Of a stretch of 64,000 nucleotides of DNA, positions 3,303-8,172 are shown one piece after another. The position numbers were made by a program, and so were the translations under genes. The notes beneath the pieces were generated by a model, which saw only the letters and a list, made by a program, of their open reading frames with translations, made no database searches and was not told the origin of the DNA. This DNA comes from Altererythrobacter xiamenensis (GTDB lineage Bacteria > Pseudomonadota > Alphaproteobacteria > Sphingomonadales > Sphingomonadaceae): NCBI RefSeq assembly GCF_900177715.1, contig NZ_FXWG01000002.1, positions 992,001 to 1,056,000 on the forward strand, in the 5' to 3' direction. Numbering within the stretch: position 1 is the stretch's first letter; every line of letters starts with the position of its first letter.

Positions 3303-3719
3303 TCAGCCCGCTGCGATCCGTGACGCGTGTTCTTTCACCAGCGCGATCATGTTGGGAACGCCCTGCGTCCGGTTGGACGAAAGCTGGTTTTTGAGGTCGA
3401 AAGGCTCGAGCGCGCCGGTAATGTCCATCCGCGCCACTTCGCTTGCCGGCTTGTCCTGCACGGCGGAGATGACCAGCGCGACGATCCCCTTGGTGATCGC
3501 GGCATTGCTGTCGGCGAGGAAATGGAGCTTGTCCGTCTCGCCCGTCGGATAGACCCACACGCTCGCCGAGCAGCCGCGGACCAGCGTGGCATCGGTCTTC
3601 AATGCGTCGGGCATGTCGTCGAGCTCGCGACCGAGCTCTATCAGCAGGCGATAGCGCTCATCGCCTTCGAGAAACTCGTATTCTTCCTGGATGTCTTCGA
3701 GGTCACGCATCAGCGCCAT
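3303..3719 (-). CDS. sufE: cysteine desulfurase sulfur acceptor SufE
   Basis: A 138-aa SufE-family protein that takes persulfide sulfur from the SufS desulfurase for Fe-S cluster assembly. The sulfur-accepting cysteine is in VRGCSASVW (C50 or nearby) and the C-terminal LSSNRTQGVPNMIALV motif is characteristic. No other suf gene is in the window. It lies 14 bases after the last small psp-associated gene and 16 before the ybaN-like gene, so it may be transcribed with them, a possible link between envelope stress and Fe-S repair; that link is inference. Confidence 0.9.
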   Translation of the reverse strand: MALMRDLEDIQEEYEFLEGDERYRLLIELGRELDDMPDALKTDATLVRGCSASVWVYPTGETDKLHFLADSNAAITKGIVALVISAVQDKPASEVARMDITGALEPFDLKNQLSSNRTQGVPNMIALVKEHASRIAAG

Positions 3720-3733
3720 CTAGGCGCTCCGGC

Positions 3734-3967
3734 TCACAAATCCACCCCGCTTGCGATGGCTTCTAGCTTCTTGATGCGTTCCTTGAGGTCCGCGATCTCG
3801 ATCCTTGCGCCGCCGACGCCGACGCCGCCCTCGATCTCACGGGGCGTGTTGTCGATCTCGCGCTGCTTGAGCGCGAGCCACCCCTGCCAGCCCTTGAGGA
3901 GGGCAAAGGCGGTGACGCACAGGCCGACAAGCGATGCGGCCGCTATGACGATGGTCGGTTCCAACAT
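3734..3967 (-). CDS. small psp-locus membrane protein, shortest PspB-like paralogue
   Basis: A 77-aa protein with one membrane helix (about 5-24) and a charged C-terminus. RIKKLEAIASG (64-74) matches the first half of the tail motif repeated in the four upstream genes and in PspB, but the second half (EIExLR) is missing, so this is a shortened member. The glycine-rich stretch at 47-53 is an odd linker. Function is unknown; the position in the psp operon and the motif point to a role with PspA/PspBC at the inner membrane. Confidence 0.65.
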   Translation of the reverse strand: MLEPTIVIAAASLVGLCVTAFALLKGWQGWLALKQREIDNTPREIEGGVGVGGARIEIADLKERIKKLEAIASGVDL

Positions 3968-4007
3968 TTCGCTTCAATCCTCCTCGAACCTTGGCCGTTG
4001 TCAGGCT

Positions 4008-4265
4008 CTACTGCTTTTGATCCTCACGCAGGCTTTCGATCTCGTCTGCGATGGCGCGGGCCTCCCGCCCGTCCACGGTGATTTTCTCGAGCACGTGGAT
4101 ACGTTCACGCAGCTCTTCCACTTCGTTCTTCAATTGCGTCTCGCGCGGGCTGGGCCCTTGGTCGCGGTCCTGCCGCAGCCGGTCGCTACCGCTCTGGCGG
4201 GAGCGCATGACGCTTGCGACTGCAACGATCAGGACAATCACGACGATGGCGGTCCAGTAACTCAC
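4008..4265 (-). CDS. small psp-locus membrane protein with PspB-like tail (85 aa)
   Basis: One N-terminal membrane helix (4-19), a charged middle, and a C-terminal coiled coil with RIHVLEKITVD (55-65) and EIESLR (75-80). The first part matches the PspB tail motif R-x3-LE-x-I-x-x-D seen in its neighbours. Its start overlaps the end of the preceding gene by 4 bases (ATGA type), so translation is probably coupled. Likely an inner-membrane protein with a cytoplasmic tail; exact role unknown. Confidence 0.7.
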   Translation of the reverse strand: MSYWTAIVVIVLIVAVASVMRSRQSGSDRLRQDRDQGPSPRETQLKNEVEELRERIHVLEKITVDGREARAIADEIESLREDQKQ

Positions 4266-4567
4266 TGCGCAGTCTCCTGCTTGCTTTCGATCTCATCGAG
4301 TTCCTGCAGGTCGCGCAGGCTTTCGATCTGGCTGGCGAGCGCGTGATTGCTGTCGGTCGCGATGCGTTCAAGCACGCGGACGCGCTCTTCCAGCTTGCGG
4401 TAGCCTTCGCCACCCTGACCGCTCTTTGCCTCCTCGGTGCGCGCTAGCAATTCGAGCTTGCGCTCTTCGTGCTCGATGCTGCGCCGGTGCGTTGCGGTCA
4501 CGAAACGGAACACGATCAGCGCCAGGGTCGTGACGAAGGCGAAGATGACGAGCAGTTCGATGTCCAT
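4262..4567 (-). CDS. small psp-locus membrane protein with PspB-like tail (101 aa)
   Basis: One membrane helix (4-22) followed by a cytoplasmic helix rich in E, K and R. The tail motif RVRVLERIATD (62-72) then QIESLRD (80-86) is nearly the same as in the adjacent 102- and 103-aa proteins, which supports descent by tandem duplication. It overlaps both neighbours at start and stop. No characterised homologue is recognised apart from the motif likeness to PspB. Confidence 0.7.
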   Translation of the reverse strand: MDIELLVIFAFVTTLALIVFRFVTATHRRSIEHEERKLELLARTEEAKSGQGGEGYRKLEERVRVLERIATDSNHALASQIESLRDLQELDEIESKQETAQ

Positions 4568-4878
4568 CAGTTCACGCCCTTTTCGTCGCGCAGGCGGTCG
4601 ATCTCGTTGGTCAGGTGATATCCGCTGTCGGTGACGATGCGTTCGACATTGGCCAGCCGGTCCTTCATCGAGCCAAGCTCGGCACGAAGTTCCGCGTTTT
4701 CCTGGGTGAGCAACTTCACGCGCTCCACGGCCTGGTCGTTCTTGGGATAGACCGGTTTGCCCCAGCTATTCTCCAGCGGATAACCGTTCTTCATCTTCAT
4801 CCAGTTCGATGCAAGATAACCAAGCGTCATGATGATGACCGATGCGATGATCGCAGTTTCTGTAATCGGAAAATCCAT
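4567..4878 (-). CDS. small psp-locus membrane protein with PspB-like tail (103 aa)
   Basis: One membrane helix (8-26), an unusual loop with GYPLENSWGKPVYPK (32-46), then a coiled coil ending RLANVERIVTD (74-84) and EIDRLRD (92-98). The stop of the upstream gene and this ATG share one base (TAATG), so translation is coupled. The Pro/Trp/Tyr-rich loop is not found in its paralogues and may be a specific interaction surface. Confidence 0.7.
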   Translation of the reverse strand: MDFPITETAIIASVIIMTLGYLASNWMKMKNGYPLENSWGKPVYPKNDQAVERVKLLTQENAELRAELGSMKDRLANVERIVTDSGYHLTNEIDRLRDEKGVN

Positions 4879-5186
4879 TATGCGCGTTCCTTGCGTTCCA
4901 TATTGAGCGGGACACCGCTGCCGCTTTCTTCGACCTTGCGAGTGTCGCGCAGCGCCTCGATCTGGGTGGCGATGTCATAGCCGCGGTCGGTCACGATGCG
5001 TTCGAGCACCTGGACGCGGTCTTCGAGCGTCTGGATTTTGCTGGCATATTGCGCAGCCTTTTCAGCAGTGTGTTCGACAGTTGCGTCGATCTGCATCTTG
5101 GCAAGCTTGCGCTGATGGCTGGTCCAGATCGCGACGATCGGGATCGAGACACCGATTATCGGAATGAGATAAGCCCAGTCCCACAT
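4878..5186 (-). CDS. small psp-locus membrane protein with PspB-like tail (102 aa)
   Basis: First of the five extra genes after pspC. It has one membrane helix (5-22), an amphipathic helix, the tail motif RVQVLERIVTD (57-67) and QIEALRD (75-81), and a short polar C-terminus. The VLERIVTD block corresponds to the ALESILDAEHP block I recall in E. coli PspB. It starts 25 bases after pspC and is coupled to the next gene. Likely a PspB-type partner of PspA or PspC; this is inference from motif and context. Confidence 0.7.
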   Translation of the reverse strand: MWDWAYLIPIIGVSIPIVAIWTSHQRKLAKMQIDATVEHTAEKAAQYASKIQTLEDRVQVLERIVTDRGYDIATQIEALRDTRKVEESGSGVPLNMERKERA

Positions 5187-5211
5187 ATTCTATTCTCCCT
5201 ACCTTCTCGGC

Positions 5212-5589
5212 TCAGCGCAGGCGCTCGATCTCGGCGGTCAGGCGCGGATTGCTCGAGACGTAGTGCGTCTCGACGTCGGCCAGACGGCGATCGACATCGC
5301 GGAAGCGGGCGCGAATTTCGCGGGCGGTGCGCTTCGGGCTCTGCCGGACGCGCTGCCAGTACTTCTGCTCGTCTGCATCGACATACAGATGCGATGGCTT
5401 CTTGTTGAGAAGCAGGCCGGCGATGAAATAGGCAGGGATGACCATGCCGCTCGTCATCGGGATGAGGAACAGCGCGCCGAGACGGACCCAGAGCGAGTTG
5501 ACCCCGGTGTAGTCAGCGATGCCCGAGCAGACGCCCATCAGCTTCGCATTGAACTTGTCGCGGTAAAGCGTGGTGCGGGGGCTATTCAC
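5212..5589 (-). CDS. pspC: phage shock protein C
   Basis: A 125-aa PspC-domain membrane protein that senses envelope stress with PspB and sequesters PspA. FNAKLMGVCSGIADYTGV (13-30) and NSLWVRLGALFLIP are the PspC signature; membrane helices lie at about 34-46 and 48-62. The cytoplasmic tail ends RRLADVETHYVSSN (101-114) and EIERLR (120-125), the same two-part tail seen in the small genes downstream. Starts with GTG overlapping the pspB stop. Confidence 0.92.
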   Translation of the reverse strand: MNSPRTTLYRDKFNAKLMGVCSGIADYTGVNSLWVRLGALFLIPMTSGMVIPAYFIAGLLLNKKPSHLYVDADEQKYWQRVRQSPKRTAREIRARFRDVDRRLADVETHYVSSNPRLTAEIERLR

Positions 5590-5882
5590 TTCACGGTTCC
5601 TTTCTTCTCGGCAATCAGGTTTTCGAGCTCGCGCAGCTGCTGATTGTCGGCTTCGCGGTTGTCCAGCAATCGCTTCGGCTGGAACTCGGGGTTCTCGGTG
5701 GCGACCAGGCGCTCGACCGTGTCCATCCGTTCGTCGAGGCGGCGGGCGAGCTGGTAGAGCTCGTCGAGCAGCACTTCGTCATCGGTGGTGATGGTCGCGG
5801 CAGTCTTCCACTTGGTAATGTAGTGAAGAATGAGCCACGGAAGGCCGATCACTACGATTGCAACGATGATACCTTCTTCCAC
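5586..5882 (-). CDS. pspB: phage shock protein B
   Basis: A 98-aa protein with an N-terminal membrane helix (5-20) and a cytoplasmic coiled coil. RMDTVERLVATENPEF (52-67) corresponds to the conserved end of PspB proteins, which in E. coli are near 74 aa, so this one has an extra charged C-terminal extension of about 30 residues. It works with PspC in releasing PspF from PspA under membrane stress. It starts 3 bases after pspA and overlaps pspC. Confidence 0.85.
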   Translation of the reverse strand: MEEGIIVAIVVIGLPWLILHYITKWKTAATITTDDEVLLDELYQLARRLDERMDTVERLVATENPEFQPKRLLDNREADNQQLRELENLIAEKKGTVK

Positions 5883-5885
5883 GGC

Positions 5886-6590
5886 TTAGTCCTCCTGGGG
5901 GTTCTTGCTTGAGGCGCTGCTCTTGCCGAGCGCCTTCTTCATCTGTTCGAGCTCGTCGTCGATCGCATCGGCGCCTTCGAGAGCGGCAATTTCGTCCGCC
6001 AGCGACGCCTTGCCATCCGACTTGTCGGCGATGCTCAGCGCTTCGGCGCGGCCTTCTGCGTAATCGACCCGGCGTTCGAGCTGGTCGAAACGGGCGAGCG
6101 CTTCGTCGGTACGCTCGGTGCTCATCAGCGTGCGCAGCTTGACGCGGTTTTCCGCGCTTTCGAGACGCGCTGCGATGGCGGTCTGGCGGCTGCGGGCTTC
6201 GCGCAGGCGATGCTGCAGCTTCTGGATGTCTTCCTCGTAGGCGCGCAGCGCATCGTCGAGCACGGCGATTTCCTGCTTGAGCTGGTCGCCCATGTCGGCG
6301 GCCTTCTTCTTCTCGACCAGGGCCGCCCGGGCGAGATCCTCGCGGTCCTTGGAAAGGGCCAGCTGTGCCTTTTCGCTCCAGTCAGCCTCGAGCTTGTCGA
6401 GCTTGACGACGTGGCGGTGCATTTCCTTCTGGTCGGCAATCGTGCGCGCCGCGCTTGCCCGAACCTCGACAAGAGTTTCCTCCATCTCGAGGATGATCAT
6501 GCGGATCATCTTCGCCGGGTCATCGGCCTTGTCGAGCATGTCGTTGAAGTTGGCGGCAATGATATCGCGGGTACGGCTGAAAATGCCCAT
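5886..6590 (-). CDS. pspA: phage shock protein A (PspA/Vipp1 family)
   Basis: The peripheral membrane ESCRT-III-like protein that both protects the inner membrane and, in gammaproteobacteria, inhibits PspF. The 234-aa core starts MGIFSRTRDIIAANFNDML and is long helical coiled coil throughout, as in PspA. The start at 6590 is chosen from the family's MGIFSR N-terminus and a GGAG 9 bases ahead. The frame stays open upstream to an ATG at 6839, so a 317-aa form with an 83-aa extension is possible (separate entry). First conserved psp gene after the sigma-54 promoter; C-terminus is acidic then Ser-rich (GKSSASSKNPQED). Confidence 0.93.
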   Translation of the reverse strand: MGIFSRTRDIIAANFNDMLDKADDPAKMIRMIILEMEETLVEVRASAARTIADQKEMHRHVVKLDKLEADWSEKAQLALSKDREDLARAALVEKKKAADMGDQLKQEIAVLDDALRAYEEDIQKLQHRLREARSRQTAIAARLESAENRVKLRTLMSTERTDEALARFDQLERRVDYAEGRAEALSIADKSDGKASLADEIAALEGADAIDDELEQMKKALGKSSASSKNPQED

Positions 6591-6839
6591 GAAGGCTACT
6601 CCATTGAAGAAATTATTGTCCTCGTCGCGATCACTAGCACGGCTGCGGGCCTGGCTCTGGGTCGGCGTCGGGGTGCGCCGCAGGCGTTCGATCTCGGCAT
6701 CGAGACGCGAAACGCGCTGCGGGTTGTAGGGTTGGGCCGAAGCATCGGCGCGACGACTGGAATGCGCGCCTTCGGGGGTGCTCTCGGGGGGGACTGAGCG
6801 CTCCGGCCCTAACTGGGATTTGTCGGTCGGCTTGGTCAT
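6591..6839 (-). other. in-frame coding leader of pspA (possible N-terminal extension or fused small ORF)
   Basis: Eighty-three codons without a stop join directly to pspA. The ATG at 6839 overlaps the TGA of the 50-aa gene as ATGA, the usual sign of coupled translation, so this start is probably used. The encoded segment is polar and disordered (many P, S, T, R), with RVSRLDAEIERLR near residues 42-54, which looks like the EIERLR end of the PspC and small-protein tails. Either a long PspA isoform is made, or a once separate small gene has lost its stop. Confidence 0.5.
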
Positions 6840-6988
6840 GCGATCTCAACGGTCTGATGCTGGGGCGCGGCGGCGAGCGCCGGGCTTGCATGCATCTGCG
6901 TGGACAGCGCTACAAACGCGACCATCGCCGCGATGCTGGCCATTGCTGCCTGTCCCAGCTTGGTCTGGAAGAAGCTGCGGTTGTACAT
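6836..6988 (-). CDS. small membrane protein, first gene of the psp operon (50 aa)
   Basis: The ATG at 6988 follows a very strong AAGGAGG nine bases upstream, about 25 bases into the transcript expected from the sigma-54 promoter. The protein has a basic N-terminus, one hydrophobic segment (KLGQAAMASIAAMVAFVALS, residues 10-29) and an Ala-rich tail that could be a signal-peptide cleavage site (SPALAAA). It could be a membrane peptide or a tiny exported protein. Its stop overlaps the next ATG. An upstream ATG at 7018 is in frame but has no ribosome site. Confidence 0.6.
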   Translation of the reverse strand: MYNRSFFQTKLGQAAMASIAAMVAFVALSTQMHASPALAAAPQHQTVEIA

Positions 6989-7024
6989 GATCCAAATCCT
7001 CCTTGCGGTGTTGTTCATATATCA

Positions 7025-7039
7025 GCAAGGGGTGTGCCA
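7025..7039 (-). promoter_or_regulatory. sigma-54 (RpoN) promoter of the psp operon
   Basis: On the minus strand the sequence reads TGGCAC-N5-TTGCT, an exact match to the -24/-12 consensus. Transcription should begin near 7013, about 25 bases before the start of the first small gene. Together with the divergent pspF and the palindrome at 7092-7112 this is the standard enhancer-dependent psp promoter. Confidence 0.88.
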
Positions 7040-7091
7040 AACTGTAAAATCACAGCAATATCAGTATCTTGACGAAGTTCGTGAATTTGGC

Positions 7092-7112
7092 GTTTGGCGC
7101 CTATTGCCAAAC
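7092..7112. promoter_or_regulatory. probable PspF upstream activating sequence (palindrome)
   Basis: A perfect 7-bp inverted repeat GTTTGGC-N7-GCCAAAC lies about 53 bases upstream of the sigma-54 promoter and 29 bases before the pspF ATG. Its location between the two divergent genes suits both enhancer binding for the psp operon and repression of pspF by its own product, as is known in E. coli. Confidence 0.7.
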
Positions 7113-7140
7113 ATTGGGATTTTTCACTATAGGTTGGCGC

Positions 7141-8172
<1,032 letters not shown>

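Follow-up and report, generated by a model that had tools for sequence, protein, structure and literature searches.

A PspF/sigma-54 operon that has multiplied the PspB/PspC docking tail on different single-span anchors, providing extra docking of PspA on the membrane, is the reading that we favor for the locus described here, with a probability of roughly 0.55. The locus lies in a 64-kb window, by which we mean the whole stretch of 64,000 nucleotides that was analyzed. Tail homology, class-specific membrane parts, position, promoter, and purifying selection are all established for an array of small genes in this operon, and its conservation, together with a half-tail copy within PspA, suggests a multi-part membrane docking system. 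The locus is composed as follows.

7069..8172 (+): pspF, divergent activator; TIGR02974 E 1.4e-144, 481 bits against a cut-off of 443.55; its true start is probably downstream of the listed TTG
7024..7039 (-): sigma-54 promoter, TGGCACACCCCTTGCT, the sole match in the window, with 0.10 expected by chance
6836..6988 (-): leader gene, 50 aa, signal-peptide-like, MYNRSFFQTKLGQAAMAS...SPALAAAPQHQTVEIA, with AGGAGG 5' of its ATG; its stop overlaps the start of the long pspA (ATGA)
5886..6839 (-): long pspA of 317 aa, the first 83 of them an N-terminal extension; matches TIGR02977 from residue 84 (E 1.7e-81)
6678..6707 (-): RLDAEIERLR, with which the PspA extension duplicates the C-terminus of PspC
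5886..6590 (-): classical, short pspA, with MGIFSRTRDI as its N-terminus
5586..5882 (-): pspB; PF06667 E 1.2e-19, TIGR02976 E 6.6e-25
5212..5589 (-): pspC; TIGR02978 E 5e-36, above the cut-off
5215..5244 (-): C-terminal RLTAEIERLR of PspC, the second half of the common tail, near-invariant in 39 relatives
4878..5186 (-): s1, 102 aa, class A; TM helix, coil and two-part tail, the latter at 4944-5027
4567..4878 (-): s2, 103 aa, class B; tail at 4585-4668, GYPLExxWG kept after the helix
4262..4567 (-): s3, 101 aa, class A2; tail at 4310-4393
4008..4265 (-): s4, 85 aa, class C; tail at 4023-4112
3734..3967 (-): s5, 77 aa, class D; its tail is limited to the first half, LKERIKKLEAIASGVDL
3303-3719 (-): sufE, next after s5

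With its divergent PspF, its sigma-54 site, and its PspA, PspB and PspC equivalogs in order, all three above the NCBIfam cut-offs, the locus is a PspF-controlled pspABC operon, and 66 of 75 relatives likewise have a sigma-54 site ahead of pspA. A previous reading of the sequence alone (hereafter the sequence-only reading) had described five genes of 102, 103, 101, 85 and 77 aa after pspA-pspB-pspC, and its coordinates, lengths and overlaps are correct: pspB/pspC overlap by 4 nt, s1/s2 and s2/s3 by 1 each, and s3/s4 by 4, with a 40-nt gap ahead of s5. Among homologous arrays, the gene start overlaps the preceding stop in 262 of 419 genes, which fits coordinated translation. Since the array sits behind the sigma-54 promoter, its products should rise with PspA after induction. 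The same arrangement weakens the suggestion that the array supplies several sensing inputs, as proteins made mainly post-induction from a PspF/sigma-54 promoter need not sense first. Passages on Zymomonas mobilis, a sphingomonad relative, report that ethanol raises pspA, pspB and pspC (PMC3495753) and that xylose raises the same three genes together with the gene ahead of pspA (PMC8645129); the passages on psp induction in these two papers make no mention of an array. The leader gene (6836-6988), for which neither Pfam nor NCBIfam holds a match, is a conserved first gene of the operon, ATGA-coupled to pspA and with a homologue in 27 loci by a strict pattern.

The kinship of the array proteins to PspB and PspC is evident at several levels. 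Individually, s1 matches the TIGR02976 PspB model (E 1.2e-4, residues 1-68 to model positions 1-68), s2 the TIGR02978 PspC model (E 4.7e-5), and s4 TIGR02976 (E 0.0042), while the best NCBIfam match of both s3 and s4 is a PspB or PspC model. All five remain far under the curated cut-offs (51.7 bits for TIGR02976, 25.6 for PF06667), the best being s1 at 22.3 bits. None matches PF04024, the PspC membrane domain, and neither s5 in NCBIfam nor the scanned class D homologues gave a direct PspB or PspC match. PspB heads the Pfam matches of class A, whose homologues match PspB in 38 and PspC in 42 of 59 cases (E<=0.01); PspC is matched by 28 of the 42 class-B homologues and PspB by 11 of 35 in class C. 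Profiles were also compared by hhalign, using as reference PspB and PspC from array-free genomes only. Classes A1, A2, B and C scored 84-94% with their best partner, which is PspC for class B, PspB for A2 and C, and both for A1. Against PspB, the values were 84-93% for A1, A2 and C, the figures for s3 and s4 being 93% and 84%, and 64% for B; class B reached 90-94% with the PspC tail. The hhalign E-values refer to a single comparison, so these figures are to be read by their contrast with controls and not as absolute values: in the comparison with array-free PspB and PspC, reversed profiles reached no more than 6% and PspA no more than 2%, and taking in the FtsB comparison they stayed below 10% and 3%, respectively. 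FtsB, a protein of similar build, scored 2-18% with the four classes A1, A2, B and C, and 23% with class D. A pooled array profile scored 95% with array-free PspB, 12% with FtsB, and 0.9% reversed. Class D is linked solely through A2 (96%) and C (95%).

The profile likeness to PspB on which the sequence-only reading had staked its proposal was found, in that four of the five tails match PspB or PspC beyond the controls, and the profile comparisons support s1-s5 as PspB/PspC relatives. Its assertion that PspB was duplicated fares less well; the helix-plus-coil architecture is indeed PspB-like, but the tail is as near the PspC C-terminus as it is to PspB. A random coiled coil was ruled out by the reversed-profile, PspA and FtsB controls. 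A ZapG-like family, sought as a further control, is absent from these genomes. No solved structures of PspB or PspC were found, and AlphaFold models of single chains, in which s1 forms one long helix, reach moderate confidence (pLDDT 70 and 64), too weak for a fold search.

The central anatomical fact is that the array consists of different, class-specific anchors bearing one common tail. Each of s1-s5 has a single hydrophobic N-terminal 19-mer (mean Kyte-Doolittle 1.76-2.63), with no K/R ahead of the helix and 2-5 K/R just behind it, a charge pattern that implies an N-out/C-in topology. Hydropathy and charge agree, for all five, with the earlier description of one N-terminal membrane helix followed by a cytoplasmic tail, and 418 and 416 of 419 homologous array proteins pass the hydropathy and charge tests, respectively. 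The motif proposed for the first half of the tail, R-x3-(L/V)E-x-I-x-(T/S)-(D/G), is exact in s1, s2, s3 and s5 and one position off in s4 (RIHVLEKITVD). The second half, (E/Q)I(E/D)xLR, is present as described in s1-s4 and at the end of PspC, with s5 lacking it. PspC itself was credited with the entire two-part tail; its second half stands, but its first half contains one extra residue (VETHYVSS), and the first half attributed to PspB is an approximate match only (RMDTVERLVA). The tail motif is not due to chance: its first half occurs in 374 of 419 array proteins versus 0 in 363,459 residues of other ORFs, and the full two-part motif in 302 array proteins versus 0 in background ORFs, a rough control composed mostly of spurious frames. 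Between classes, tail identity is 23-60% (over 19 residues) and anchor identity 18-34%, near background; within classes, anchor identity is 31-68%. Fixed residues include G32/Y33/L35/G40 in class B and W27/W30/L33/K34 in class D, the latter being the invariant W, W, L and K of a juxtamembrane RGWQGWLxLK. The array is under purifying selection, with a median dN/dS of 0.29-0.50 that is well under 1 and above the 0.20 of PspB/PspC. The tail module also occurs outside the membrane array, as a soluble zinc-ribbon-like protein with two CxxC pairs in one family member (L222:3728-4117) ends in a two-part tail, RVSTLETIATDPAERTAREIEALRE.

For the distribution of the array, a named-genome scan provided 80 loci, which come from Erythrobacteraceae and closely related genomes, Novosphingobium MAGs among them. 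The position beside pspABC in relatives, the other point on which the sequence-only reading had made itself dependent, is borne out, as the array sits between pspC and sufE in all 81 loci (window included), a few of whose contigs end inside it. Copy number across these loci is 5 in 30, 6 in 20, 4 in 19, 7 in 8, 3 in 3, and 8 in 1, and clustering yields four classes in a near-fixed order, A-B-(A)-C-D. Within the GTDB family of the window, all 32 complete loci fetched contain 1-7 array genes, the family label of these sampled loci (f1) resting on kinship to the window. A class-A profile search of this genome gave no match outside the operon.

Across the order, pspC is almost universal (149 genomes), and the loci fetched from families besides that of the window and a second one, f8, have plain pspABC, save one extra PspB-like gene in L159, an operon-linked small protein with a plain PspB tail (LEQRMHNMERILDAEVPGWRERLD). 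Some genomes of f8 carry one array-like gene behind a tail-less second PspC. The arrangement of pspC, a tail-less second PspC, and one array-like protein was observed, outside the family of the window, at L083, L107, L110, L148, L158 and L162; in loci of the L083 type, anchor and tail appear to be divided over two genes. A distant relative (L123:1908-2396) has two extra small genes after pspC, one with a plain PspB tail (LEDRVLQLERILDAEAPGWRSRA) and one with a plain PspC tail (RVAGIERYVTSPEFGLNRQFRDLE), and is likely to offer a picture of the ancestral state. The single small proteins of L159 and L123 represent intermediates outside the family. Run over the class sample, the class-A profile retrieved family members, L207/L208, and weak matches including ordinary or single extra PspB-like genes. 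At L207:1249-1731 (-) and L208:1240-1734 (-), two adjoining array-like small genes lie between a dut-like and an RDD-like gene, and in G299 this pair is about 80 kb away from pspC.

The second half of the tail is not confined to the array and PspC, since EIERLR recurs in the N-terminal extension that PspA carries here, as it does in most Erythrobacteraceae, a point missed by the sequence-only reading. Counting the window, 75 Erythrobacteraceae-type genomes have a pspA frame that is open for at least 48 codons upstream of the classical start, and 74 of these extended PspA proteins contain R-[LIF]-[DE]-x-E-[VI]-E-x-L-R or something close to it, in most cases with RSPTPTQ behind it; in the window, RLDAEIERLR of the extension compares with RLTAEIERLR at the end of PspC. 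The 73 aligned extension cores agree without exception on R, E, R and P and have a pN/pS of 0.26, so the extension is both translated and selected. The Gly codon four codons ahead of the classical ATG is GGA in 75/75 genomes, GGA making up 49 of the 556 Gly codons (9%) in the pspA body. This fixed GGA points to a GGAG ribosome site 8 nt upstream of the classical ATG, and hence to use of the classical start as well. On this evidence, the simplest reading would be two PspA isoforms produced from nested starts. The conserved motif and the pN/pS of 0.26 rule out a random upstream ORF in the Erythrobacteraceae-type genomes; for other genera, where the sequence upstream of pspA is not conserved, this explanation is accepted. 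The extension is absent in about half of the family's other genera, and this patchiness outside the Erythrobacteraceae suggests that it is either younger than the array or was lost more often.

Several inferences can be made regarding functionality. PspA is bound by the C-terminus of PspC when the E. coli and Yersinia systems are ON (PMC6003685, PMC5596341), substitution of V105 (E. coli) or V125 (Yersinia) in the PspC tail abolishes PspA binding (PMC6003685), and PspBC form a complex and bind secretins (PMC5596341). V105 lies within ERYVTS of the E. coli tail and corresponds to the V of ERIVTD in s1 and s2; the equivalent residue is V/I in 85 of 102 s1-type proteins, V in 108 of 114 s2-type proteins, and mostly A in the others. 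The proteins of A2, C and D, in which it is replaced by A or T, may thus not bind PspA. We conjecture that s1 and s2 could be additional PspA docking sites and s3-s5 assembly or clamp subunits; by analogy with PspC, binding of the array to PspA or PspC is plausible. Under membrane stress, PspC/PspB would free PspF from PspA and the operon would be expressed, whereupon the array proteins would add many PspC/PspB-type tails to the membrane. Presumably, they would hetero-oligomerize with PspB and PspC via their coils, and their tails might serve as extra docking sites for PspA, or as sites clamping the PspC tail, to yield a multivalent PspA assembly on the membrane, while the differing membrane and juxtamembrane parts could determine to which clients or membrane states the complex is steered. 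In the many Erythrobacteraceae with a long PspA, its tail-half copy might compete with PspC and the array for one partner, and this competition could set a threshold or reset the response. A more far-reaching version, which we entertain tentatively and would not bet on, is a self-referential docking code in which interchangeable anchors carry the same tail and the long PspA isoform competes with its own membrane receptors; that such self-competition would set both PspF release and the assembly site is, as a part of this version, equally doubtful.

It is also conceivable, but unlikely, that the array consists mainly of PspB-like clamps, whose tails hold the PspC C-terminus in its OFF state and so damp the response after induction or shut it down. 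The PspC tail cannot contact PspB and PspA at the same time, as Flores-Kim and Darwin reportedly found in 2015, which would suit such clamps, as would the proximity of classes A2 and C to PspB rather than PspC and the induction of the array along with the operon, as negative feedback predicts. However, A1 and B retain the V required to bind PspA, and PspC tails are their best or joint-best match. Alternatively, the array proteins might be effectors that pack via their anchors into damaged membrane or onto misplaced proteins, with the tail merely tethering them to PspBC. Anchors kept within classes and unrelated between them, with signatures such as W27/W30 (class D) and GYPLExxWG (class B), are in line with such a role, and PspBC alone protect Yersinia from secretins (PMC5596341, PMC3467454); yet from class to class it is the tails that are conserved best, which makes docking look like the common function, and we consider effectors improbable. 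Although the tails are short, helical and of low complexity and class D has no direct match, generic coiled coils alike by convergence and unrelated to PspB/PspC are scarcely credible in view of profile matches well over controls, a two-part motif absent from the background, and an invariant operon position.

The docking reading that we prefer bears upon PspB/PspC stress sensing and the hand-over of PspA to the membrane. With up to eight sensor-tail versions on different anchors plus a PspA mimic, a docking rule could be readable from sequence variation, and it would be testable by deletion and swapping in marine alphaproteobacteria. Furthermore, surveys counting one PspB per operon overlook most of the membrane components in this GTDB family.

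The sequence-only reading knew of no described system with this arrangement, which is too strong, as Ravi et al. 2024 had noted "PspB duplicates" in pspFABC operons in one clause, with AOL22920.1 as the example (PMC11237479). Their operons resemble the array in having extra PspB-like genes within the operon, and the passage concerned gives no numbers, classes, distribution, tail analysis, mechanism or function for the duplicates. The passages on PspB in Popp et al. 2022 (PMC9239133) do not mention the array, and in the open-licence literature, supplements aside, no paper was found that describes the array itself, its classes, or the copy of the tail in PspA. Operons with extra PspB-like genes are already known, and the array classes and the PspA tail copy appear to be new.

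Among known systems, the psp operon of E. coli has the single pspB that had been ascribed to it. PspD and PspG of enterobacteria are, like the array, extra small membrane proteins under PspF control. PspC (its C-terminal domain, TIGR02978) shares with the array a two-part tail with a short second stretch and, in A1 and B, the V105 position. In contrast to PspC, the array proteins lack its membrane domain, the V105 position is occupied by A or T in A2, C and D, and the second stretch reads EIExLR, whereas E. coli PspC ends in RSRFRQL. PspB (PF06667/TIGR02976) shares the N-terminal helix, the cytoplasmic coil, a LEERIxxLERI-type tail, and the same operon; unlike PspB, the array tails continue into a PspC-like second half and occur as 1-8 divergent copies besides the genuine PspB.
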